Of a stretch of DNA of 34,898 nucleotides, positions 15,647 through 29,340 are shown piece after piece (within the stretch, counting starts at the first letter, position 1; each line of letters opens with the position of its first letter). The position numbers were made by a program, and so were the translations under genes. The stretch is taken from NCBI GenBank assembly GCA_028706005.1, contig JAQWCI010000007.1, positions 1-34,898 of the forward strand. Direction: 5' to 3'. This stretch comes from Lachnospiraceae bacterium (GTDB lineage: Bacteria > Bacillota > Clostridia > Lachnospirales > Lachnospiraceae). Below the pieces are notes generated by a model. It had not been told where the DNA came from. It saw only the letters and a list, made by a program, of their open reading frames with translations, and ran no database searches.

Positions 15647-16437
15647 GTGAGCTTTGCAGCGCCATTTCCCTGAGCCCTGAAGCAGTGGCCTGTGTTGAAA
15701 AAGTCAGAATAAGTGAAGAGGAATACTACGATAAAAGAAAACTATTCCGCGAGGACAGGGAGGCATTCTGGAGGGAGATCCTTGGCAGAAGCAACTACAG
15801 GATACTGTTCCTGCATTATTATCTGCGGTTTGCCTGCGATGCTTATGATGATTACCTGTCACAGGGACTGACCAGGGAAATATATTTTGATACTTTTCGT
15901 GACATAGAATACTGGTGTGCCAATTGTTTTGACAGATACGGAGAGTACGGAATTGCCGATTATGAGTGGATAGCAAAACTCATGGCTCCTGAGGTCATAA
16001 GGCTGGGGCGGCTCGAATATGAGGCTGTGACGCTGAAAAGAGACATTTCTGTGCCTGATCTGTTCCTGCCAAAAGGAAAGAAGATCATTTTCGTCCACAT
16101 TCCACAGGGCAGCAGGCTGGATGATGAGTCAGTGGGAGAATCGCTTAAGACGGCGCGGCAAAGGTACGGCGCCGGTGAAGTATTCGCATGTTATTCATGG
16201 CTTATGTACCCGGGGATCATGAATATCATTCCCAGGAATAGCAACATTGCTCTTTTCCAGAAAAGATTTGACATAAAAGGTGCCGATGAAAACGACAGAC
16301 AGGCCGAGGAGAGAGTTTTCGGACAGGCACTTGACGATCCGGCACATTACCCAGAAAGAACTGCGCTGCAAAGAAATATGAAACAATATCTGCTTTCGGG
16401 ACACAGCCTTGGCTGCGGGTTCGGGATTCTGAAATGA
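15643..16437 (+). CDS. Acyltransferase-domain protein (NAT_N/GNAT_C-type, formerly DUF5596)
   Basis: This is a 264-aa cytosolic protein with no membrane segments. The first half is alpha-helical ('YYDKRKLFREDREAFW...'). The second half has the pattern seen in the GNAT-like C-terminal acyltransferase family: 'LGRLEYEAV', 'IIFVHIPQGSRLDDESV', 'VFACYSWLMYPGI', 'IPRNSNIALFQKRFDI'. The ATG at 15643 overlaps the preceding stop codon (ATGA) and gives the family-like N-terminus 'MSELCSAISLSPEAV'. An in-frame ATG at 15616 is an alternative; the ORF-track start at 15532 lies deep in the upstream gene. The biochemical role of this family is essentially unknown. Coupling to the GH109-like gene suggests it acts on the same sugar, perhaps as an acyl- or acetyltransferase, but this is inference. 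Confidence 0.7.
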   Translation: MSELCSAISLSPEAVACVEKVRISEEEYYDKRKLFREDREAFWREILGRSNYRILFLHYYLRFACDAYDDYLSQGLTREIYFDTFRDIEYWCANCFDRYGEYGIADYEWIAKLMAPEVIRLGRLEYEAVTLKRDISVPDLFLPKGKKIIFVHIPQGSRLDDESVGESLKTARQRYGAGEVFACYSWLMYPGIMNIIPRNSNIALFQKRFDIKGADENDRQAEERVFGQALDDPAHYPERTALQRNMKQYLLSGHSLGCGFGILK

Positions 16438-16442
16438 CAGGC

Positions 16443-16475
16443 AAGGTCCGTGTTAAGTCACGGGCCTTTTTCTTT
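16443..16475 (+). terminator. Terminator after the GNAT_C-type gene
   Basis: A 10-bp stem (AAGGTCCGTG / CACGGGCCTT, one T-G wobble) with a 6-nt loop runs into TTTTTCTTT. It ends the GH109-like/GNAT pair, so the transporter genes have their own promoter. Confidence 0.88.
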
Positions 16476-16551
16476 ACAGTTCACTGGCCTGCTCCATGGT
16501 TAAAGTGTTCGTTTGAGTTTGTCCATCTCAGCTCTCATACATAGTGAATGC

Positions 16552-16569
16552 ATGCCAGTGAACTGGCAT
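16552..16569. promoter_or_regulatory. 18-bp operator-like palindrome
   Basis: ATGCCAGTGAACTGGCAT is two perfect 8-bp half-sites around a GA centre. Its right part also belongs to the 12-bp long-range inverted repeat. No LacI/GntR-type regulator is encoded in the window, so the binding protein is unknown. Confidence 0.5.
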
Positions 16570-16579
16570 CACTGCCTGG

Positions 16580-16628
16580 ACTTGTCTTATTCTGACATTT
16601 CCAGGCGCAAGGTCAGAATAAGACAAGT
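16580..16628. repeat. 17-bp perfect inverted repeat, 15-nt spacer
   Basis: The arms ACTTGTCTTATTCTGAC (16580-16596) and GTCAGAATAAGACAAGT (16612-16628) are perfectly complementary. The spacer contains CCAGGC, which is complementary to GCCTGG lying just outside the left arm (16574-16579), so an RNA copy could form a pseudoknot or an alternative fold. No T-run follows, so it is not an intrinsic terminator. Confidence 0.8.
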
Positions 16629-16677
16629 ATGGTGTAAATGACGTCAGAAAAAGGCAAGAATCCGGTAGTTTAACTTA

Positions 16678-16706
16678 TTCATCTAAAGGAGCGCAATTGC
16701 TAGAAT
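16678..16706 (+). promoter_or_regulatory. Candidate activator-type promoter of the transporter operon
   Basis: TTCATC (a poor -35 match) lies 17 bp from TAGAAT, with a TGC extension (TTGCTAGAAT) giving an extended -10. A weak -35 is common at promoters activated by AraC-type response regulators such as the one encoded downstream. The call rests on the -10 only. Confidence 0.4.
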
Positions 16707-16727
16707 GCAGTTGTAAGACATGGGAAC

Positions 16728-16796: not shown

Positions 16797-18200
16797 ATGA
16801 ATAAGAAAAAGGCATTATCACTTGTTTTGGTCACTGCACTTGCAGGATCAGCGCTGATCACAGGGTGCGGATCACAGAGCACGGCATCAACAGATACAGC
16901 GGCAACAACAGCAGCTACGCAGGAAAGCGCTGCTGCGGAAAGCACGGCAGCTGCGGAAACAGAAACAGCAAATGGCGAGCTTCCGACAATCAAATTTGTC
17001 CACGGCTATTATCAGACAGCAGAGGAATGGCCGGCAGCTGAAGTTATGAGACAGATTTACGCTGATTTCGCGGAACTCCACAAAGATGAATACACATTTG
17101 AGGCAGTGGCGGATGAGACAGGCGGCGAGGGCATATACAACACGGCGCTCAACGATCTCAGTTCAGGAGAGTTTTATGACATCGCTGATTTCGGCGGCTG
17201 GGACATCACACCTGTAGCTTCAGAAGCAGGAGCAATCCTTGATCTCAAGCCTTATCTCGATGAGGATCAGGCATTCAAGGATGGAGTAGGCGTCTGCTAC
17301 GATCAGAACCTCACAGATGACGGCAAGATCTACACAGTACGTGAGCAGGTAGAGGCAATCGGTTTCTGGTACAACGAGAACCTGTTCAACGAGGCAGGAG
17401 CTGACACACCTGACAAATGGCAGACATGGGATGATTTCAATACAGCTGTTGATAAACTTGTGGCAGCAGGCATCAATCCTTTCGGTCTGAACGGCGGCTG
17501 GCCGTCAAACATTCTCACAGGTGCAAGCCTTCAGAGAAATGAAGCTTCAAGAGAGTTTTACCAGAACGGACTTAATGTGACAGATTTCAATACTGACGCA
17601 TTCAAAGAGACAGTAGCATTCATGCAGGACGATGCGCTCGGCAAGATAGATACAGCATATTTCGGACCCGGCGGAGATGATGACAACGCTTATACTGATA
17701 CCTTCAAAGAAGGAAAGTCAGCAATGCTCTTTAACGGCGTATGGGCAGCAGGCGACGCAGCAGAAGTTGACGGTGCTAAGCCGGCAGTGTTCCCGACAGA
17801 TGAGCCCGGCAAGAAGGCAGCTCTTATGACAGGCGGATGCGGACTTGTTGTTTCATCAAAACTTGATGAAGCCCAGACAGCGGCAGCAATTGATTTCCTC
17901 AAGTACATGACAAGCCCTGAGATAGCGGCAAAGATAGTTGAAGCGGGCGTAGGCATGGCTCCTTCCACAACAGTGGACTATAAAGCAATTGAAGGAAATG
18001 TAACTGACGCAGCAGGAAAGCTCCTTGTTGAGGCATGCAACCTCTGCCAGAGCGCTGATTATCAGTCAGTTGGATTCGGAACAGCATTCGGCGGCGGTAT
18101 TGAAGGCGAAATGAGCGCCAAGTATGCAGGTCTTAAGGATGGATCAAAGACACCTGACGATGTAGCTCAGGAACTCAACGATTTTGTAGCAGCTGAGTAA
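16797..18200 (+). CDS. ABC transporter sugar-binding lipoprotein
   Basis: This is an extracellular solute-binding protein (family 1) that captures a sugar or oligosaccharide and delivers it to the two permeases downstream. The start is ATG 16797, six bases after GGGAGA. The ORF-track start at 16731 would add 22 non-signal residues. A lipoprotein signal peptide ends in the lipobox 'LITGC', then an Ala/Thr/Glu-rich linker of about 35 residues. The mature part begins 'LPTIKFVHGYYQTAEEW'. The motif 'IYTVREQVEAIGFWYNENLFNEAG' and a C-terminal 'GKKAALMTGGCGLVVSS...AAIDFLKYMTSPEIA' are typical. The protein is 467 aa. It is a paralogue of the broken binding protein at 28091. A terminator-like hairpin follows, as is usual where binding protein must outnumber permease. 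The ligand is unknown. Confidence 0.92.
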   Translation: MNKKKALSLVLVTALAGSALITGCGSQSTASTDTAATTAATQESAAAESTAAAETETANGELPTIKFVHGYYQTAEEWPAAEVMRQIYADFAELHKDEYTFEAVADETGGEGIYNTALNDLSSGEFYDIADFGGWDITPVASEAGAILDLKPYLDEDQAFKDGVGVCYDQNLTDDGKIYTVREQVEAIGFWYNENLFNEAGADTPDKWQTWDDFNTAVDKLVAAGINPFGLNGGWPSNILTGASLQRNEASREFYQNGLNVTDFNTDAFKETVAFMQDDALGKIDTAYFGPGGDDDNAYTDTFKEGKSAMLFNGVWAAGDAAEVDGAKPAVFPTDEPGKKAALMTGGCGLVVSSKLDEAQTAAAIDFLKYMTSPEIAAKIVEAGVGMAPSTTVDYKAIEGNVTDAAGKLLVEACNLCQSADYQSVGFGTAFGGGIEGEMSAKYAGLKDGSKTPDDVAQELNDFVAAE

Positions 18201-18262: not shown

Positions 18263-18314
18263 AGAGAGAAGGCCGTGAGCATTTGCAATACCGCTCAGGC
18301 AAGGAGGAAATCCT

Positions 18315-19214
18315 GTGAAAAACAAGCAGAAGAGTATTTTTATAATTGTTTTCCTGCTTCCGTGTATCATAATGTGGCTCCTGATCTATGCATATCCTCT
18401 GGCAAATATCATTGTCACATCTTTCTGCAACTGGAATTACAAGAATTTTACGGCGCCGGAGTTTCCCGGTGTTGCTCATATGTTCGACAACTACATCAAA
18501 TTGTTCACACTGGACAATAATTTCAAGATGGGTCTTATAAATTCACTGAAATGGGTCGTCCTGACGCTTATAGTTCAGGTCCCGTTCACGCTTCTTGTAG
18601 CACTTGTTTTGTCCAAAAAACCACGTGGGTGGAGATTTACAAGAAACGCATTCGTAATCCCTAATATCATTTCATCAGCGGCAATCGGCCTTATCTTTAT
18701 GAATCTGTACAGCCCTTCACGCGGAATCGTGACGGAAATCTGCAATTTCTTCGTGCCAGGCAGCAATGTCAGTGTACTTACGGATTCAAGATATGCTTTC
18801 TGGGGCGTGACATTTTCATTCATTCTTTACGGCGGAACGAACTGTATCCTTCTGCTGACTCAGATATTCTCAATTGATCCATCGATGATAGAGGCGGCAA
18901 AGGTCGATGGCGCGAGCAATGGTCAGATAGACACGAAGATAATAATGCCGCTCCTGCGCCCGATGATAGGAACAGTGGCAGTGCTTGCTGCAAATTACGG
19001 ACTGCTCCTCTACAACGAGATCGCACTTATAACAAGAGGCGGCCCGGACAACAGCACATATTCCCTCAGCTACTATATTTACAAGACAGCTCTCGGCAGC
19101 ACGAAACTCAACTTTGCCAGAGGCAACGCGGCGGGCGTAGTCCAGTTCATACTTGGGATACTTCTCGTCGGTGCACTCAATAAGTTATTCAGGACGAATG
19201 AGTCAGAGGTATAA
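18315..19214 (+). CDS. ABC sugar transporter permease 1 (MalF/UgpA-like)
   Basis: This is an integral membrane subunit of a carbohydrate ABC importer (CUT1 type). The 299-aa protein has about six transmembrane helices, starting 'IFIIVFLLPCIIMWLLIYAYPLANII'. The EAA loop that contacts the ATPase is 'EAAKVDGASNGQIDTKIIMPLLRPMI'. The start is a GTG at 18315, set by AAGGAGG seven bases upstream. It follows the binding-protein gene after the hairpin at 18233-18262 and pairs with permease 2 about 90 bp downstream. No ATPase gene lies in the locus, so a shared MsmX/MsmK-type ATPase from elsewhere is likely used. The substrate cannot be read from the sequence. Confidence 0.93.
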   Translation: MKNKQKSIFIIVFLLPCIIMWLLIYAYPLANIIVTSFCNWNYKNFTAPEFPGVAHMFDNYIKLFTLDNNFKMGLINSLKWVVLTLIVQVPFTLLVALVLSKKPRGWRFTRNAFVIPNIISSAAIGLIFMNLYSPSRGIVTEICNFFVPGSNVSVLTDSRYAFWGVTFSFILYGGTNCILLLTQIFSIDPSMIEAAKVDGASNGQIDTKIIMPLLRPMIGTVAVLAANYGLLLYNEIALITRGGPDNSTYSLSYYIYKTALGSTKLNFARGNAAGVVQFILGILLVGALNKLFRTNESEV

Positions 19215-19306: not shown

Positions 19307-20119
19307 ATGAGACGATTTCTGGCAAGATTTTTAGAGTATTTCGTGATGTTAGTAGTTCTTATTATTTCAATATATCCGATATGGTGGGTTTTTATATCAT
19401 CATTTAAAGCCAACCCCGGCGGTCTGGCACTTCCGGATGTATGGGTGTTTGACGGTTATAAGACCATCTTCACCAGCCTGAATATTCAACAGTACTTCAT
19501 GAACAGCATCATTGTAGCGGTGGCGTCAACTATCATAAGCGTTCTGATAGTGAGCCTTGCAGCATATGTTTCCGCAAGAATGGAGTTCAAGGGCAAGTCG
19601 ATAATATCACTTATGTTCGCTACGACACTCTTTATCCCGGCTGTTTCAATAAGCTTTCCCATTTACAGAATGCTGGGCGATCTGGGGCTGAAAGACACAA
19701 GGATAGGACTTGTTTTTGTATATTCCGGTCTTGGTATAGCGGTCACATATTTCATAATCCGCAGCTATTTCCTCACGATTCCCAAGGAGATGGAAGAGGC
19801 GGCAAGAATAGACGGATGCAGCTACTATGCGACATTCTTCAAGATCATAGTACCGATTGCAAAACCGGGACTTTCGACTGCAGCGATCCTTGTTTTCCTC
19901 AACAACTGGAACGAATACTACTTCGCATCCATATTGCTCAAGAGTAAAGACAAAATGACATTGCCGGCATTGCTCGGTCAGTTTACGACAGCGTATTCCA
20001 AAAATCTCAATGGTATGTTCTCGGCGATAATCGTCACGGTTGTTCCTACTATTGTTGTTTTCTGTCTGCTGTCTGAAACCTTTGTAAAGTCGTTGACTGC
20101 AGGGGCGGTTAAAGGTTAA
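19307..20119 (+). CDS. ABC sugar transporter permease 2 (MalG/UgpE-like)
   Basis: This is the second membrane subunit of the CUT1-type importer. The 270-aa protein has about six transmembrane helices. It opens 'FLEYFVMLVVLIISIYPIWWVFISSFK', followed by the extracytoplasmic 'LPDVWVFDGYKTIF' typical of MalG-type permeases. The EAA loop is 'MEEAARIDGCSYYATFFKIIVPIAKPGL'. ATG 19307 follows CGGAGAAAA. The C-terminus '...FVKSLTAGAVKG' is the family's usual ending. It is adjacent to a structured repeat region and then the fucosidase gene, consistent with one transport-and-hydrolysis operon. Confidence 0.93.
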   Translation: MRRFLARFLEYFVMLVVLIISIYPIWWVFISSFKANPGGLALPDVWVFDGYKTIFTSLNIQQYFMNSIIVAVASTIISVLIVSLAAYVSARMEFKGKSIISLMFATTLFIPAVSISFPIYRMLGDLGLKDTRIGLVFVYSGLGIAVTYFIIRSYFLTIPKEMEEAARIDGCSYYATFFKIIVPIAKPGLSTAAILVFLNNWNEYYFASILLKSKDKMTLPALLGQFTTAYSKNLNGMFSAIIVTVVPTIVVFCLLSETFVKSLTAGAVKG

Positions 20120-20230: not shown

Positions 20231-21547
20231 ATGAACATAATTGAAGACAGGGAGAGAAGGACCGCATGGTTCTCAAAAGACAGGTTCGGGATGTTCATCC
20301 ACTGGGGTCTTTACGCGATCCCGGGGAGAGGCGAGTGGGTACAGAGCGACGAGCAGATCAATCAGGACAAGTACGCAGAGTACTTTGACGAGTGGAACCC
20401 AACGCATTATGACCCGGTGAAGTGGGCAAAGATGGCCAAACAGGCCGGAATGAAATATGCGATCCTCACCACGAAGCATCATGAGGGGTTCTGTCTCTTC
20501 GACAGTGCATATACAGATTACAAATCAACAAACACAAAGTGTGGCAGGGATCTCGTGCGCGAATTCGTCGATGCTTTCCGTGCGGAAGGTCTCAAGGTCG
20601 GATTTTACTATTCACTTCTTGACTGGCATCATCCGGATTATCCTGCATACGGCGATATGTACCATGGCGACCGCAACAATAAGGCTCTCATGGGCAAAAC
20701 ACATAACTTCGAAAACTATCTCACCTATCTTCATAATCAGGTGAGGGAGCTCATGACAAATTACGGCAAGATAGATATTCTCTGGTTTGATTTTTCGTAC
20801 AAGGGACATATGGGCGAGGACTGGCACGGAACGGAACTTGTGAAACTGGTAAAGAGCCTTCAGCCCGATATCATCATGAACGGGCGGCTTGAAGCCAATG
20901 GTGAGAATTACGGCTCTGTCATGACTGATGAACCTAATGTTTTCTCGGGAGATTTTGCGTCTCCTGAAATGATAATCCCACCGGCAGGACTGCAGACGCC
21001 GTCAGGCATGGATGTGCCGTGGGAAGCTTGTTTTACCCTGAATAACAACTGGGGCTACGCGCCGAACGATAAACAGCACAAGAATCCAAGACAGATCATA
21101 AAGAAGCTTGTTGAGTGCGTGAGTAAGAACGGAAATATGCTCCTCAATGTTTCTCCTACCGCGAAGGGGGATATACCACAGTGGCAGCAGGATGTGCTTG
21201 GAACAGTCGGAAACTGGATAAGAGATAACGGCGACAGTATATATGGCTGCGGCAGATCTGAGTTCCCGAAGCCCGAATGGGGAAGATACACACAGAATGG
21301 CAACAAACTATATGCACATATCATGGAAGAGAGCATAGGAGCTGTTGCGCTGCCGGGACTTAAGGGCCGGATAGAAAAGGCCAGAAGACTTTCTGATGGT
21401 TTCGAGATGGTTACAATGACGCCCTGGGTCGCAAAGGAATTCCCGGATTGTGAGTTCATAAATTATGGACTGCCGGAATATTTCTCATTCACTACAGATG
21501 AAGAAATAGACACTGTGATAGAAATAACGCTGAAGGAAGAAGGGTAA
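20231..21547 (+). CDS. GH29 alpha-L-fucosidase-like glycoside hydrolase, intracellular
   Basis: GH29 enzymes cleave alpha-L-fucosyl residues with retention of configuration. The 438-aa protein starts at ATG 20231 behind TTGGAGGATTT. The TIM-barrel catalytic domain has the hallmark 'FGMFIHWGLYAIPGRGEWV', then 'YDPVKWAKMAKQAGMKYAILTTKHHEGFCLFDS', 'GLKVGFYYSLLDWHH' and 'IDILWFDFSYKG'. The last holds the predicted nucleophile at Asp187. 'NGNMLLNVSPTAKGDIP' ends the barrel, and a short C-terminal beta domain follows. There is no signal peptide, so it acts on imported sugars. The sequence is compact compared with secreted fucosidases that carry extra binding modules. Exact specificity (fucose or another 6-deoxy sugar, and linkage) is not visible. 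It is six bases from the GH65 gene. Confidence 0.9.
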   Translation: MNIIEDRERRTAWFSKDRFGMFIHWGLYAIPGRGEWVQSDEQINQDKYAEYFDEWNPTHYDPVKWAKMAKQAGMKYAILTTKHHEGFCLFDSAYTDYKSTNTKCGRDLVREFVDAFRAEGLKVGFYYSLLDWHHPDYPAYGDMYHGDRNNKALMGKTHNFENYLTYLHNQVRELMTNYGKIDILWFDFSYKGHMGEDWHGTELVKLVKSLQPDIIMNGRLEANGENYGSVMTDEPNVFSGDFASPEMIIPPAGLQTPSGMDVPWEACFTLNNNWGYAPNDKQHKNPRQIIKKLVECVSKNGNMLLNVSPTAKGDIPQWQQDVLGTVGNWIRDNGDSIYGCGRSEFPKPEWGRYTQNGNKLYAHIMEESIGAVALPGLKGRIEKARRLSDGFEMVTMTPWVAKEFPDCEFINYGLPEYFSFTTDEEIDTVIEITLKEEG

Positions 21548-21553
21548 TTTCTG

Positions 21554-23809
21554 ATGGGATGGCTTGTCAGTGAAGAGAATTTCGACAAATCGAAGATAGA
21601 ATTATTCGGCAGCAAATTCTGTATAGGAAATGGAAATTTCGGATACAGGGGAACGCTTGAGGAATATGGTAAGGAGCAGCTCTGCGCTCTGACATTGTCG
21701 GAGATATATGATGATAATGGCTGCGGCTGGCGTGAACCCGTAAATATGCCCAATCCTTTTCACATAAACCTGAGTGTCGGCGGCGGGAATATTTCTGTTC
21801 TTGGCAGCAATGTGGCAAAACATGAGCAAAGCCTTGATATTAAGCATGGAATACACAGCAGGAACACGACGTTTGTGACTGGCAGCGGCAGCAGGGTCAG
21901 TGTCAGCTCCGAACGCTTCGCGAGCATGGCAGCGCCTGAGCTCATCGCAGAGAAATATATGCTCTCAGCGGATTCAGACATTGATATTGTCATGAATGCA
22001 GGCCCTGATATGGATGTATGGGACATAAACGGTCCTCATTTTAATGTGATCCGCAGTGAGTCTTCGGGAGGAAATACGGACAATCATTTCCTCATCGAAA
22101 CAATAGAGAAGAAGTACCAGGTCTCAATGTGTGTGAGTTATCTTGTGCAGACCGGCTGTGATTATAAGCAGGACGGGAATCAGTACACAATACATCTGAC
22201 AAAGGATGATTCATTTCTGCTGACAACATATGCGGTCATCACCAAGGGCATCCACTGCGCTGATCCTTTTGCGGAATCTCGTGCAAAGTGCGAATGTTTT
22301 GCAGGGAAAGGTTTTGACCAGGTCCTTAAGGAACATGAGGCAGTGATAGAAAAGAGATGGAGATCATACGACATTGAGATAGAGGGTGACCCGTATGCGC
22401 AGCTTGCTGTGAGATACAGCATATATCTGCTCCTTATCGCTGCTCCATTCCACACGGAAGGCATTGCGATACCGGCCAGGGGCCTGTCAGGGCAGGTCTA
22501 CAAAGGAGCTATGTTCTGGGATACGGAAATCTACATGCTCCAGATGTTCCTGTTCGAGGAACCTGAGATAGCAAAGAACCTTGTTATGTACAGGGTAAAA
22601 CATCTGAAGGAAGCCCTGGAAAAGGCTGCAGAGTTCGGTTATGAGGGCGCATTCTATCCGTGGGAGAGCCAGGAGACGGGAAAAGACGGCTGCACGCTCT
22701 ACAATCTCACTGACATATTTACGGGAAGAAAGATGAGGACATATTTCAGGGACAAACAGATCCATATAAGCCCTGATGTCGTATTCGGCTTATACAAATA
22801 CATGGAGATCACCGGGGATTATTCGATACTCCTGCAAGGCGGAACAGAGGTCATTCTGGAGTGCGCAAGGTTCCTTTATTCGTACTCGTATTTCAAGAAA
22901 TCCAGGAACAGATATGAGCTTCTTGATGTGACAGGTGCTGACGAATATCACGAGAGAGTCAACAATAACGCTTATACGAATTATATGGCGAAGATGGCAC
23001 TGAAGTGTGCTGTTGATACACGCGCGTATATGGAGAAGAATCATAAGGCGGAGTGGGATTCGATCGTAAAGAAGCTTAAGTTTGAGGACGATCTCGCACA
23101 TATTGATGAGATGCACAGGCTTATCTATACGCCTGCGCCAGGCAAAGACGGCGTGATAGAGCAGTTCGACGGGTATTTCAAAGAAGAGGATCTTTCTGTC
23201 AGAGAACTTTACAGCAGACGTATCAAAGAAAACGAATATCTGGGGAGCCTATGCGGTCTTGCGGTAAACACTCAGATCCTCAAGCAGGCAGATGTGGTCC
23301 TTATGATGAGCCTCCGTCCTGATCAGTTCACAAAAGAGGAAAAACGAGCCAACTGGGATTACTACGAGAAGAGGACAGAGCACGGTTCGAGCCTGAGTAC
23401 CTGCATTTATGCGTTGCTCGCGGCCGAGATTGATGAGAAGACTTACGCTTATGACTACATGATGAAAGCCGCGACGATAGATCTTGTCGGGAATTACAAG
23501 CTCTACCTCGGAGATCTTTATATAGGCGGCACGCATCCTGCGGCAAACGGCGGAACATGGATGGTAACAGTCCTGGGATTCGGCGGACTCAGGGTAAATG
23601 CGGACGGAGTGAGTTTTGTGCCTGACCTGCCGGACAGTTGGAATTCAATGTCATATCACTTCGCGTGCAGGGGATATGAGGCTGACTGCAAGCTTACGAA
23701 GACCACAATGACACTTCACCTTACCGGGCAGAAGAAGAGCGGATTTTTGTTCAATATAGGCGGCAAAACATATGAAATGACGGATGACAGCATAACTGTG
23801 AACTACTGA
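21554..23809 (+). CDS. GH65 glycoside hydrolase/phosphorylase
   Basis: GH65 enzymes act on alpha-glucosides such as maltose, kojibiose, nigerose or glucosyl-rhamnose. Most are inverting phosphorylases that release beta-glucose-1-phosphate, and some are hydrolases. The 751-aa length fits. The N-terminal beta-sandwich starts 'FCIGNGNFGYRGTLEEYG'. The (alpha/alpha)6 barrel holds 'MFWDTEIYMLQMFLFEEPEIAKNLVMYR', 'GAFYPWESQETG' and the catalytic acid in 'VTGADEYHERVNNNAYTNYM' (Glu464). 'EHGSSLSTCIYALLAAEI' follows near the C-terminal domain. There is no signal peptide. I cannot decide phosphorylase versus hydrolase from the sequence by eye. It is six bases after GH29 and 13 bases before a HAD gene; a phosphatase/mutase partner would suit a phosphorylase, but that HAD is not a typical beta-phosphoglucomutase and is broken. 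Confidence 0.92.
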   Translation: MGWLVSEENFDKSKIELFGSKFCIGNGNFGYRGTLEEYGKEQLCALTLSEIYDDNGCGWREPVNMPNPFHINLSVGGGNISVLGSNVAKHEQSLDIKHGIHSRNTTFVTGSGSRVSVSSERFASMAAPELIAEKYMLSADSDIDIVMNAGPDMDVWDINGPHFNVIRSESSGGNTDNHFLIETIEKKYQVSMCVSYLVQTGCDYKQDGNQYTIHLTKDDSFLLTTYAVITKGIHCADPFAESRAKCECFAGKGFDQVLKEHEAVIEKRWRSYDIEIEGDPYAQLAVRYSIYLLLIAAPFHTEGIAIPARGLSGQVYKGAMFWDTEIYMLQMFLFEEPEIAKNLVMYRVKHLKEALEKAAEFGYEGAFYPWESQETGKDGCTLYNLTDIFTGRKMRTYFRDKQIHISPDVVFGLYKYMEITGDYSILLQGGTEVILECARFLYSYSYFKKSRNRYELLDVTGADEYHERVNNNAYTNYMAKMALKCAVDTRAYMEKNHKAEWDSIVKKLKFEDDLAHIDEMHRLIYTPAPGKDGVIEQFDGYFKEEDLSVRELYSRRIKENEYLGSLCGLAVNTQILKQADVVLMMSLRPDQFTKEEKRANWDYYEKRTEHGSSLSTCIYALLAAEIDEKTYAYDYMMKAATIDLVGNYKLYLGDLYIGGTHPAANGGTWMVTVLGFGGLRVNADGVSFVPDLPDSWNSMSYHFACRGYEADCKLTKTTMTLHLTGQKKSGFLFNIGGKTYEMTDDSITVNY

Positions 23810-23822
23810 GGAGCGAAAGATC

Positions 23823-24686
23823 ATGGCAAAGTATAAATGTGTTTTTTTTGATTGGGACGGGACTGCGGTCGAATCGAGGACTGCTCCGGCTGAAGATGTT
23901 TTGAAGGCTATGGTACCTGTACTTAGAGCGGGCGTAAAGCTTATAATAGTGAGTGGAACGACAATAGAGAATATCGCGGAAGGCAGCATTGAGAAGAACA
24001 TTCCGGAAGACTGCCTCGGAAATCTCTATCTCGGTCTCGGCAGGGGTGCCTTTGATTACGGCTTTAAAGACGGCAAGCCTGTGATAATAAACAGTATGCT
24101 GCCTGATAAGAATACACTGCTGAAGATCCATTCAGCCAGTTTTGACCTGCATACGAAGCTGCTGCGGGATTACGATCTGAATTCGGACATCGTTTTCTCG
24201 AGACCAAATTACTGTAAGGTCGATCTCATGGCAGATCACGATCGCGGCGGTAAACTTTTCCTTCAGCAGAGTGAAATCGGGATGGTACAGGAGAAACTGA
24301 AGAGAAAAGGAATTTCAGAAGGTCTTGCAGATGTCATCAGGATGGCGGATGATATGGGTACAAAGTAAGATTTACCTCTTTGTTCGACAACTGATGCCAA
24401 GTATATCGAGATCGGCATAACAACAAAGAGCGATAATGTTGATTACTTCATGAAAAACGTACTGTACAAAGAGGGAATAAAGGCCGAAGATTGCTGCTTT
24501 GTCGGGGATGAGTTCACATATCTCACCGACGGGATCAGAGGGAGCGACGCCTACATGATAACGGAAGCCACAAAGAATGGAACCTTTATTGATGTGTCCG
24601 AAAATCCGTGGAAACTGCCGGACGAAGTAAGAAATATCGGAGGCGGCGTAAGCGCATTTAAAGAATTCCTTTCTTCTGTGCTCTGA
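23823..24686 (+). pseudogene. HAD-superfamily (class IIB-like) phosphatase, interrupted by an in-frame TAA
   Basis: Motif I is 'CVFFDWDGTAVES' near the N-terminus and motif II is 'LIIVSGTT'. A cap region of about 110 residues follows, then TAA at 24366-24368 (codon 182). Reading on in the same frame gives an uninterrupted 'DLPLCSTTDAKYIEIGITTKSDNVD', with the motif III lysine in 'TTKSD', motif IV 'VGDEFTYLTDG' and a natural C-terminus at 24686. The gene is therefore one 288-codon frame broken by a single stop, possibly AAA to TAA. The truncated product lacks motifs III and IV and should be inactive. Its place directly after GH65 suggests a role in the sugar-phosphate step, but motif and cap layout are not those of beta-phosphoglucomutase. 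A sequencing error is the main alternative to a real lesion. Confidence 0.85.
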
Positions 24687-24722: not shown

Positions 24723-26489
24723 ATGAGTTCTGAGAGAAAAAAAGTAAAATCGCTCAGAAATACAATGATCACTACAAATGTTCTGATAGCACTCCTTGCC
24801 TTTACACTATGCGGAGTGCTATTTATCATATCTGCATCTACCCTCACAAAGGACTACATAAGCTCAGACATGGATTTCTACATGGAACAGATCACCGGCA
24901 ATATCGATCAGCGCACAAAGTTCATTGAAGATGCCATGATAAGTGTCAGGAATACTTCAGATCTGATGGATGCGGTAGCGAAAGATGATAACAGCGGCGA
25001 CAGGAATCAACTTCAGAACCGTTTCCAAAACGTGGTAGATATAAGCAGTGAGAATAACATCAGCGAGAACGGCACACCGTTCATAACCTGTGTTTTTCTT
25101 ATGTGTTCAGCGGACAATTATCTCACAAGTTTCTACTATGCTCCGGACAAGACAGAGCTTGGCAGGACAGACAGAGATATATCAGTTTTTTACAACAATT
25201 ATCTGGAGTCAGGGGAGACAGCCTACAGAGAAAGCCTTGACGGCAAAACATATCTGGCATATCCACTTTATGACAGCAACATGGACGCAGTCAGCTGCAT
25301 GATATTCAGGATGAATACCGACAGTATCAAAGAGGTGATGAGCACGATAGAACGCTTTGATGATGCCTTTTTTGTCATGTACGACAAGTATGGGACTGTG
25401 CTCGGAACAGACAACATAAACGCGGATGAAACAATAGCGGAATTCAACGGTGAACACAGTGACGATCCGTACATAAAGAAGATTGGAAACAAAAACTATC
25501 GCGTTTACAATACTGAATCCAACATGGGTTTTGACTTGCTGATGGGAATTCCTGAGTCTTATGCGGCTTCGGTCCTCATGAATTCTTTCAAAGTCTACCT
25601 GTTCGTTATCGTGATAGCGGGAGCTATCTCCCTTATAAGTTTTGCCGTTTTCACATCAAGAGTCACAAAGCCGCTTGAGCAGCTCACTGCGAAGCTCCGC
25701 AAGGTAGAGACTGGTGATTACACGGTAAAACTTGACCTTTACGACAGTGAGGAATTCACGGAGATAAGCAACGCCTTCAATGAGATGACTGATAATATCA
25801 ATCACCTTGTTCATGAGGTTTATGAGAAAAAGATCGCAATCGATGATATGAATCTTCGCTTCTATCAGTCTCAGATGAATCCACATTTTGTTTTCAACGT
25901 GCTGAACGGCATAGCGCTTCAGGCGAAGATGGACGGAAATGATTCTCTGTTCAAGGTCACTTCATCATTTGCAAAACTGATGCAGGCCAAGATATACAGG
26001 TCTGACAGTGAGAAGGTGATGATAAAGCAGGAGCTCGAGTATGTTAAGTGTTATCTCGAGATACAGGAATTCCGGTACGGGGATAAACTGAACTGCACTT
26101 TCAAAGTGGATAACGACAGGCTGCTCGATTATTATGTGCCAAAACTCTGAATACAGCTTATAGTTGAGAATGCCGTCGTACACGGAATCGAGAACAAGAT
26201 CGCGGATGGAGTGATCACGGTAAGTATAGCGGATGATGACGGCATTATGATTATTGTCGAGGACAATGGCGTGGGTTTTGACAGGGATGGGGAGATTCCT
26301 CTTCCGCTCGTGTTCGATGAGCAGGCCGAGGGACATAATCACATAGGAATCAATAATGTTCTGCAGATAATCAAACTGGCATATGGCGACAAATACGGCA
26401 TGAGGATAATTTCAGGGAAAAATGCCGGAACAACGGTAATGATGCATATTCCGTATGATAATGGATCAACAAAGCAAGGAGACGACTGA
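24723..26489 (+). pseudogene. YesM-type sensor histidine kinase, interrupted by an in-frame TGA
   Basis: This is a membrane sensor kinase of the Lyt/Yes family that pairs with AraC-type regulators. Order: transmembrane helix 1 (about 17-40), an extracellular sensor domain to about 280, helix 2 (about 291-311), HAMP, then the phospho-accepting 'QMNPHFVFNVLNG' with His388. TGA at 26148-26150 (codon 476) falls inside the sequence that normally reads 'PKL.lQ.lvENA'. Downstream in the same frame the N box 'QLIVENAVVHGIENK' and G box 'IIVEDNGVGFD' continue cleanly to 26489. The stop therefore removes the ATP-binding domain, and one base change (for example TTA to TGA) would explain it. The start ATG 24723 has GGAGG. 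Its end overlaps the regulator's ATG (TGATG), so the pair was translationally coupled. A sequencing error is possible. Confidence 0.87.
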
Positions 26490-28051
26490 TGTTCAAAGTC
26501 ATGTTGGCTGATGATGAGCCTATTATGAGAAAAGCACTGAATTCTCTTGTTAACTGGGAACAGTATGACTGCGAAGTGGTATATTGCGCCAGAAACGGGC
26601 TTGAGGTCTCGGAAAAGCTGGACGAAGTGAAGCCTGATATTCTTATAAGCGATATACGTATGCCAGGAAAAGACGGTATTGAACTGGCCAGAGAAATATA
26701 CGAGGAGAAGCGGGATATAGCAGTCATAATTCTGACGGCATACTCGGATTTCGAATACGCCAAGAAGGCACTGCAATACGGAGTGGTAGATTATGTGACA
26801 AAAACAGATGTGCTGGATCAGCTTGGACATTCACTTGAAATGGCAGCAGAAAAGCTTAAGGGTTCGAGGAACAGTGAGGGTGCAGACAATAAGCAGCTAA
26901 GACTGGAGAACATGCTTAAGTCTGTTTTTAATCACTCGGTTTATGATAAGAGCATTATTGAAGATTCTTTTAGTGCCTTATCTGTAGAGCTTCGCAACTA
27001 TGCAGTCCTGATCATACAGATACAGATCAGTGATGAACTCACAAAGAAGCGGTCTGAAACGAAGATCCGCGAGAGTATCGACAATTTCTTCAATATGGCT
27101 TTCGAGAATTATCTGTTTCAGGCTATCCCTGTTGAAAGGGACAGGTTCGCGGTGATTCTTGCCGGTTGCGAGCCACTGAGGCAGGGCAGTCTAATAATTC
27201 GCATCAAAGATGCGACGGAAACCATGAACAGGTTCATGCACCTCAAGGCAGGAACAGGTGTGAGCTCATTCCATGTAAACTGCGGAGAACTGGGCGAAGC
27301 ATACAAAGAGGCTGAGCTGGCGCTGGAGTCGGAGTTCCTCAGCGACAGAAAGAACGTATATTTTTACGGCGACGGCATAAAGGAAAAAGAACATTATGAT
27401 ACGGCTGAGAATGACAGGCTGGTGAGTGAAATCACAGAGAACATCAGGCTTGGGAATGATAAGGCTGCAGACGAATGTTTTGATGAGCTGTTGTCATATC
27501 AGAGGGAACAGGGGTATGGAGCCCACACAATAAAGAACACTGAGCTGTCAATCCTTATGCAGTGCAGTAGGATTACGGATGTTTATGATAAGAGTTTTTC
27601 CGAGGTGACAGGCATCAGGGAAAACTTTACGGAGATAATCCGGGAACAACGATTTATTGAAGAATATGAAGCACTGATGCGAAAAGTGATCGGGGATATG
27701 TGCGGCTTTATGGCTGAATCCAGGGACAGGAGCCGGTCTATCATAAAGGAATGTGAAGAATACATAGACAAGCATTACATGGAGAATCTTGTTCTTGACG
27801 AGATGGCGGATAGTATAGGCACCAGCACCGGCTACCTCAGCAGGCGGTTCAAGGAACTGACCGGTCAGACGATCATTGAATATACGAATAAAAAGCGGCT
27901 GGAGAAAGCCAAGGAATACCTGTCAAAAGATGATGTGATGATATACGAGGTCGCTGAGAAGCTGGGTTTCGGCAATGCTACGTACTTCTCGCACTTCTTC
28001 AGAAAAGCCACAGGAATGACACCGAAGGAATATAAGGATTCCTGCCAGTAA
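26489..28051 (+). CDS. AraC-family response regulator (YesN-type)
   Basis: This is a cytosolic transcription regulator, probably the activator of the surrounding sugar genes. The receiver domain (about 1-120) has the acidic pair 'ADDEP', phospho-acceptor Asp55 in 'LISDIRMPGKDG', 'ILTAYSDFEYAKKAL' and Lys106 in 'DYVTKTD' (Thr follows where Pro is usual). A long linker domain (about 130-410) of the YesN type follows. The C-terminal AraC double helix-turn-helix spans about 420-518 and includes 'EMADSIGTSTGYLSRRFKELTGQT' and 'YEVAEKLGFGNATYFSHFFRKATGMTPKEY'. The full 520 aa are intact, unlike its partner kinase. The start overlaps the kinase stop by one base. If the kinase is truly dead, the regulator may be constitutive, cross-phosphorylated or on its way to loss. 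Confidence 0.93.
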   Translation: MFKVMLADDEPIMRKALNSLVNWEQYDCEVVYCARNGLEVSEKLDEVKPDILISDIRMPGKDGIELAREIYEEKRDIAVIILTAYSDFEYAKKALQYGVVDYVTKTDVLDQLGHSLEMAAEKLKGSRNSEGADNKQLRLENMLKSVFNHSVYDKSIIEDSFSALSVELRNYAVLIIQIQISDELTKKRSETKIRESIDNFFNMAFENYLFQAIPVERDRFAVILAGCEPLRQGSLIIRIKDATETMNRFMHLKAGTGVSSFHVNCGELGEAYKEAELALESEFLSDRKNVYFYGDGIKEKEHYDTAENDRLVSEITENIRLGNDKAADECFDELLSYQREQGYGAHTIKNTELSILMQCSRITDVYDKSFSEVTGIRENFTEIIREQRFIEEYEALMRKVIGDMCGFMAESRDRSRSIIKECEEYIDKHYMENLVLDEMADSIGTSTGYLSRRFKELTGQTIIEYTNKKRLEKAKEYLSKDDVMIYEVAEKLGFGNATYFSHFFRKATGMTPKEYKDSCQ

Positions 28052-28090: not shown

Positions 28091-29340
28091 ATGAAAAAGT
28101 GCCTGATCATAATTCTGGCCTGCGCTATGCTCCTTTTGGGGTGCGGCGAGACAGAAACAGCAGAGAAAACAAAAATATCGTTTATTCACGGATGGGGTGG
28201 CAGCAGCGAGATCCACGCCAGGATGCGCAAAATATATCAGGAGTTCGAAGAGCTTAATCCTGATATTGATCTCAGTATCACTGAATATGCTGACGCATCC
28301 GTTGCAATGGACAAAGCTGATGATATGTTATCGGTAGGTAAGATGCCGGACATTGTCAACACGAGTGGCTATGCTTCGTACGCAAGAAACGCCACAAAGC
28401 TTGGCTATGCCATGGATCTGAGCGGCTTCTTCGAAGAAAATACCGAAGTGGCAGACAGCCTTTACGAGGATGCAATTGATACGCTGAGAATGGGAAACGG
28501 CAGAATATATACGGTCCCGGATGCTATCGAGGCTCCGGATACTGGTACAATGAGAAGCTCTTTGATGCGGCAGGCGTGACAGAGGTGCCGCTCACCTGGG
28601 ATGAGTTTTTCGCAGATATGACCGCTGTGGATACTTACATGAAAGATGAAGATCTGGGATCGGCCTGCTGCGTTGAGTCCACCCAGCTGTACGAATTCTT
28701 CCTGCTGGCTGATATGTATGGACACTTCAGTGCAAGGGATGAAGCTTCGTTTAATTATGGCAGAACAAGTGGAGACACTTTATTCGCCGTCAGGAATGAC
28801 CTTGACAGACTGCTTGAGGTATCTGACACAGCGGACAACACTGCAGGTGCCAGAGAAACGTTCCTTTCAGGCGGCTCCGCGGTGTATTTTAACGGGATAT
28901 GGGAGAGTGAGCCTATAGACAAGGCAGATATTTCTGAAGATATAAAGTTCGCACCATATCCGTCTTCAGATGGAAAAGGGCTTATTTACTTCTCTGTGTC
29001 TTCAGGCTATGTAATAAAAAAACAGGAAGACTCGAAGAAAGAAGAAGCCGTGCAGAGGTTCCTTAAGTATATGCTCAGCGATGACGTACAGACACAGATC
29101 GCATATGATACTGGACAGATGCCAATTAGCAAAAATGTAGATTTCGATAAGGTCGAAGATTACATACCGACACTTAGCGCGGCTATAAAAGCCGCGAACA
29201 CAGCCGGCAAGAGAATAAGGACACTGTCTTCCGCCTGGAACCAGGAGAAGATAGACATTCTCTACGAATATTATGAGAGCGGGTCTGAGGACGAGAAAGA
29301 TGCTGTGTACGCCGCGGACATGATCAATAAGACATCCTGA
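28091..29340 (+). pseudogene. Sugar-binding lipoprotein of ABC type, frameshifted
   Basis: The N-terminal part (28091-28579) starts 'MKKCLIIILACAMLLLGCGE', a lipoprotein signal with lipobox 'LLLGC', followed by 'ISFIHGWGGSSEIHARMRKIYQEF'. The C-terminal part reads in another frame (ORF 28576-29340) and ends 'DAVYAADMINKTS'. Comparison with the intact paralogue at 16797 ('VEAIGFWYNENLFNEAG') places the break at about 28535-28537. Loss of one base in a C/G run there shifts the frame, and restoring it would give 'IEAPGYWYNEKLFDAAG'. The restored protein would be about 417 aa. Its position right after the two-component genes rather than beside permeases suggests it fed ligand to the kinase or was an alternative receptor for the same transporter. 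A homopolymer sequencing error is an alternative. Confidence 0.88.

Follow-up and report, generated by a model that had tools for sequence, protein, structure and literature searches.

A candidate three-half-site operator for an AraC-type response regulator upstream of a sugar transporter and fucosidase operon in a Lachnospiraceae bacterium

For AraC-type two-component regulators of sugar operons, sites upstream of promoters are reported to recur with a period of 21 or 32 bp (PMC8579813), and RhaR of Escherichia coli uses two inverted 17-bp half-sites separated by a 17-bp spacer (PMC3870299). In Ruminiclostridium cellulolyticum, according to excerpts of two reports, the CuaDSR system combines a sensor sugar-binding protein, a kinase and an AraC-type response regulator, and induces a neighbouring sugar ABC transporter and cytosolic enzyme, the cuaABC-cbpA operon (PMC5663094, PMC10384115). 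The class of mechanism that we propose here is already known.

Our study examined a window of 34 898 nt from a Lachnospiraceae genome, in which a perfect inverted repeat lies between a GNAT-type gene and an operon for a sugar-binding protein, two permeases, a GH29 alpha-L-fucosidase and a GH65 enzyme; a YesM-type kinase, a YesN-type regulator, a second sugar-binding protein and a GH13 enzyme are encoded further downstream. This inverted repeat is most likely the distal part of an operator of three half-sites to which the response regulator with an AraC HTH, encoded further along the cluster, would bind. The features concerned are as follows.

16443..16468, + strand: intrinsic terminator of the upstream GNAT-type gene, the only terminator found by the scan
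16580..16596, - strand: half-site 1, the left dyad arm, reading GTCAGAATAAGACAAGT on the - strand
16612..16628, + strand: half-site 2, the right dyad arm, GTCAGAATAAGACAAGT
16643..16658, + strand: half-site 3, the proximal, direct copy, GTCAGAAAAAGGCAAG, whose position relative to the promoter is conserved in orthologs
16678..16683, + strand: predicted -35 (TTCATC), within a conserved TTYATTC block, from conservation in orthologs
16701..16706, + strand: predicted -10 (TAGAAT), after a 17-bp spacer, from conservation in orthologs
16797..18200, + strand: extracellular solute-binding protein, first gene of the putatively regulated operon
18315..19214, + strand: ABC permease 1, conserved at every orthologous locus, with a Pfam BPD_transp_1 match slightly under the curated threshold
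19307..20119, + strand: ABC permease 2
20231..21547, + strand: GH29 alpha-L-fucosidase
21554..23809, + strand: GH65 family enzyme
24723..26150, + strand: YesM-type histidine kinase, with an in-frame TGA at 26148-26150
26489..28051, + strand: response regulator with a C-terminal AraC HTH (YesN-type), the proposed binder of the half-sites
28091..29340, + strand: second solute-binding protein, the proposed sensor (third component), its frame broken near 28575

The original prediction described a perfect 17-bp inverted repeat with a 15-nt separation, and this is present, the left arm reading ACTTGTCTTATTCTGAC and the right arm being its exact reverse complement. It was also right that such a match is unlikely by chance: when the 359-bp intergenic region was dinucleotide-shuffled 150 times, the longest perfect dyad was 5-9 bp. 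The account of the dyad was correct but incomplete, since a third half-site had been overlooked, which repeats the right-arm copy in direct orientation exactly 31 bp further on and is 14/16 identical. The 16-mers start at 16581 (-), 16612 (+) and 16643 (+), forming a 31-bp lattice of about three DNA turns, and four half-site matches at <=3 mismatches were found in the window versus 0.4 expected, and none of 100 shuffles reached four. Repeated half-sites of ~16-17 bp in helical phase are the arrangement of an AraC/XylS-type (YesN-like) operator. One further copy, at 15703-15718 with 2 mismatches, falls within upstream coding sequence and was treated as chance. A search for additional copies elsewhere in the same genome, as the original prediction had suggested, returned none of the half-site at <=2 mismatches, and the near-exact dyad, searched for in 392 genomes of the order, was found in its own genome only and in none of the viral contigs or plasmids searched.

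AraC-type operators of Caldicellulosiruptor bescii, from both two- and single-component systems, resemble the array in the window in having repeats with large spacers at sugar transporter operons (PMC8579813). Those repeats, sought at a periodicity of 21 or 32 bp, lie mostly upstream of mapped promoters; they are tandem, in contrast to a perfect dyad with an added direct copy, and the organisms, sequences and substrates differ (PMC8579813). The RhaR operator shares with the window inverted half-sites of ~17 bp, a similar spacer and a location upstream of a sugar operon, but the window has a third, direct half-site, and the half-site sequences are unrelated as far as compared (PMC3870299). RhaR is an AraC-HTH activator, as is proposed for the binder in the window, but it is a one-component rhamnose-binding protein, whereas the candidate in the window is a response regulator (PMC3870299). 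The circuit is similar to that of CuaDSR as it appears in the excerpts, in which no repeat-bearing operator was found described; however, CuaDSR is a cellobiose system and the enzyme linked to the transporter in the window is a GH29 alpha-L-fucosidase (PMC5663094, PMC10384115).

Several further genera of the family have orthologs of the solute-binding protein, at ~58-67 % identity. The same permeases come after each of them, and GH29 does so in all loci but one; these loci usually also carry the kinase, the regulator and a sensor-type binding protein. A TTYATT(C) block is common to their upstream regions, as is a -10 hexamer that follows the ATT of this block at 24-25 nt (in L071 and L072 other distances were initially assigned, and the hexamer at 24 was taken by eye). 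The array lies upstream of these conserved, predicted -35 and -10 elements, which is the position of an activator site, and transcription is predicted to start near 16713. The same kind of array, with a dyad, a proximal direct half-site and the conserved promoter, was found at the orthologous transporter promoter in six genera beyond that of the window, the dyads being those of L063, L065, L066 (and its near relative L067), L069, L071 and L072. L064 has the proximal site alone before the upstream gene begins, and L076 has a direct repeat. In nine loci an A-rich half-site is placed 34-37 nt ahead of the conserved ATT, and in L076 the proximal half-site is 46 nt ahead, one turn more. The window half-site deviates from the A-rich consensus of its relatives and its leave-one-out scores are low. 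The near-twin (L026 in genome G021) has an identical array and hence offers no covariation. A different A/T dyad was seen in L073 and no clear array in L074 and L075; these three distant loci were excluded from the statistics. The sequence of the array is not conserved in the genomes of the order that were searched, but its architecture is conserved in the loci described above. The pairing in relatives, on which the original prediction had staked its refutation, persists as dyad symmetry, but between DNA half-sites.

The spacing of the half-sites was examined with a weight matrix built from promoter-anchored proximal sites only, with the tested locus left out, and slid over the upstream DNA. 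A first scan, locus by locus, was significant in few loci only, and the register was imperfect for two sites. A joint test of the offsets over all loci resolved the matter. Direct sites cluster at -40, with a summed score of 46.5 versus a shuffle mean of -4.0 and maximum of 26.6, and inverted sites at -30, with a score of 13.4 versus a shuffle maximum of 1.8; in both cases 0/300 shuffles reached the observed value. Successive direct sites are ~29-32 bp apart in the window and in L076 and ~40 bp in the others, a difference of one turn. The dyads of the orthologs are perfect or nearly so, and the dyad spacers, of 15, 6, 26, 16, 25, 18 and 25 nt, are helix-phased (R 0.78-0.83, p 0.005-0.011), although these p values are indicative rather than strict, because the arm boundaries and test loci were chosen by hand after the sequences had been viewed. 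The spacers differ by steps of about one DNA turn, falling at 6, 15-18 and 25-26 nt. It is conceivable, as a tentative generalization that we would not yet favour, that in this operator family whole helical turns can be added or removed between half-sites (spacers of ~6, 16 and 26 nt), keeping the same helix face while the half-site sequence drifts across genera. The family would then form a natural series in which to study the way orientation and spacing are read by AraC-type response regulators.

Among the genes scanned, the AraC-HTH response regulator is the sole DNA-binding regulator in the cluster, and its PDB relatives include the DNA-binding domains of response regulators (6swi, and 3lsg, which is named YesN). 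Full-length regulators 38-41 % identical to that of the window were found in seven operon-bearing genomes from six other genera, and an eighth genome (G661) has one that is 39 % identical across the first 300 residues; paralogues reach ~25-31 %. Where aligned, the HTH regions are 47-57 % identical, L070 being left out of this comparison. The putative cognate regulator is thus co-conserved with the operon, except in Robinsoniella (G550), where the best-matching regulator is on another contig and not beside the operon. This exception, and the fragmented state of the near-twin locus, would suit a genuine operator to which some other transcription factor binds, such as an AraC protein of the single-component type encoded elsewhere. 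We consider that improbable, given a co-conserved regulator without a DNA-binding competitor among the genes scanned in the cluster and a geometry that suits an AraC-type protein.

A protein-binding site was one of three origins raised by the original prediction, and is the one supported by the third in-phase half-site, the equivalent arrays at orthologous genes and the predicted, conserved promoter just downstream. Since the array lies upstream of the predicted promoter and is helix-phased, an activator operator is the best reading. Together, the YesM-type kinase and a sensor sugar-binding protein would sense a sugar outside the cell, probably a fucosylated one, and bring about phosphorylation of the response regulator, which would then bind the three 16-17-bp half-sites (16580-16596, 16612-16628 and 16643-16658), about three DNA turns apart. 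The bound regulator would recruit RNA polymerase to the predicted promoter (16678-16706), whose -35 is poor, and so turn on the transporter and fucosidase operon. The half-sites, their phasing, the predicted conserved promoter and the co-conserved regulator all emerge from sequence comparison. From these we infer which protein binds, that it activates and does not repress, and what the inducer is.

Our proposal gives the fucosidase and sugar-transporter operon of an uncultured anaerobe an operator, a promoter and a regulator that can be put to the test. Counterparts exist in several genera, among them the cultured Robinsoniella peoriensis. To our knowledge, the operators that YesN-type response regulators use are poorly characterized, which makes it useful to have a set of relatives whose spacings differ by whole turns.

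As the kinase and sensor genes are interrupted in the assembly, the circuit may be decaying in this organism. The in-frame TGA of the kinase is absent from the near-twin genome, where the frame is open. A HAD-like gene is also interrupted (frame, at 24368), making three such genes in the cluster, and these interruptions may reflect real decay or assembly errors; the genomes of the window and the near-twin are both fragmented assemblies, and the record of the twin is a metagenome-assembled genome. Compared with window positions 21338-24522, the near-twin (L026:13548-14571) is without two stretches of ~1.07 and ~1.09 kb, a loss that cuts the GH29, GH65 and HAD genes.

A structured RNA, in which the repeat forms a 17-bp hairpin and perhaps a pseudoknot in the operon leader or a small RNA, was another origin raised by the original prediction and is very unlikely. 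The repeat folds well as RNA (-27.7 kcal/mol, z -4.9), as any perfect dyad would. The proposed pseudoknot strands, GCCTGG at 16574-16579 and CCAGGC in the loop, both exist and are able to pair. A match of 6 nt is weak evidence, however, and no such pairing was seen in the orthologous regions. The predicted transcript begins downstream of the array, which argues against a leader RNA; the loop varies from 6 to 26 nt among relatives, and a hairpin would leave the direct third copy without a role. Rfam gave nothing above threshold in the window and a match at chance level only in the intergenic region, none of it credible for the repeat. The leader and pseudoknot reading was rejected on the position of the predicted promoter, the variable loop and the missing pseudoknot in relatives.

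That the repeat is an intrinsic terminator of the upstream transcription unit is less probable again. In L063, L066 and L071 the operator dyad does run into a T-rich stretch right after the preceding gene, and one sequence may serve there as both terminator and operator. However, this stretch coincides with the further inverted half-site at -30, and in the window, as originally observed, no T-run follows the repeat, so that it is not the G+C-rich stem with T-run of a terminator; moreover, a separate G+C-rich terminator at 16443-16468 serves the preceding gene. A remnant of a small mobile element, the third origin raised, can be dismissed almost entirely, since the MITE-like repeat that ends 14 bp upstream is unrelated and its copies are without the inverted repeat, the inverted repeat has no other copy at <=2 mismatches in the genome and none in the plasmids and viral contigs searched, and the array occurs at the same promoter in other genera.

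The MITE-like repeat itself spans 89 bp (16477-16565), has inverted ends CAGTTCACTGGCCTGC and GCATGCCAGTGAACTG, and has related copies of variable length in its own genome and in the near-twin. A separate dispersed repeat was seen in the near-twin, where an extra ~165 bp (L026:8830-8990), absent in the window, lies immediately ahead of the operon start codon. About 150 bp of this extra stretch is a dispersed repeat, matched in full or in part 19 times in G000 and 22 times in G021; copies lie in L088-L092 and L093-L111. Most copies inspected in G000 are in one orientation, shortly upstream of the start codons of unrelated genes (tyrS-, dapB- and purA-like, and others). The repeat ends in a module carrying a Shine-Dalgarno sequence; this module, CGCTCMGKCATGGAGG, occurs at <=1 mismatch 32 times in G000 versus 0 for the reversed control and 33-34 times in G040 and G038, is rare in most other species of the genus, and is present in the window at 18292-18307. 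The leader repeat found no credible Rfam match. A consensus with several hairpins is shared by eight copies, and six of its pairs have changed on both sides in one copy or more. It is possibly an undescribed mobile leader RNA, and perhaps more unusual than the operator array.
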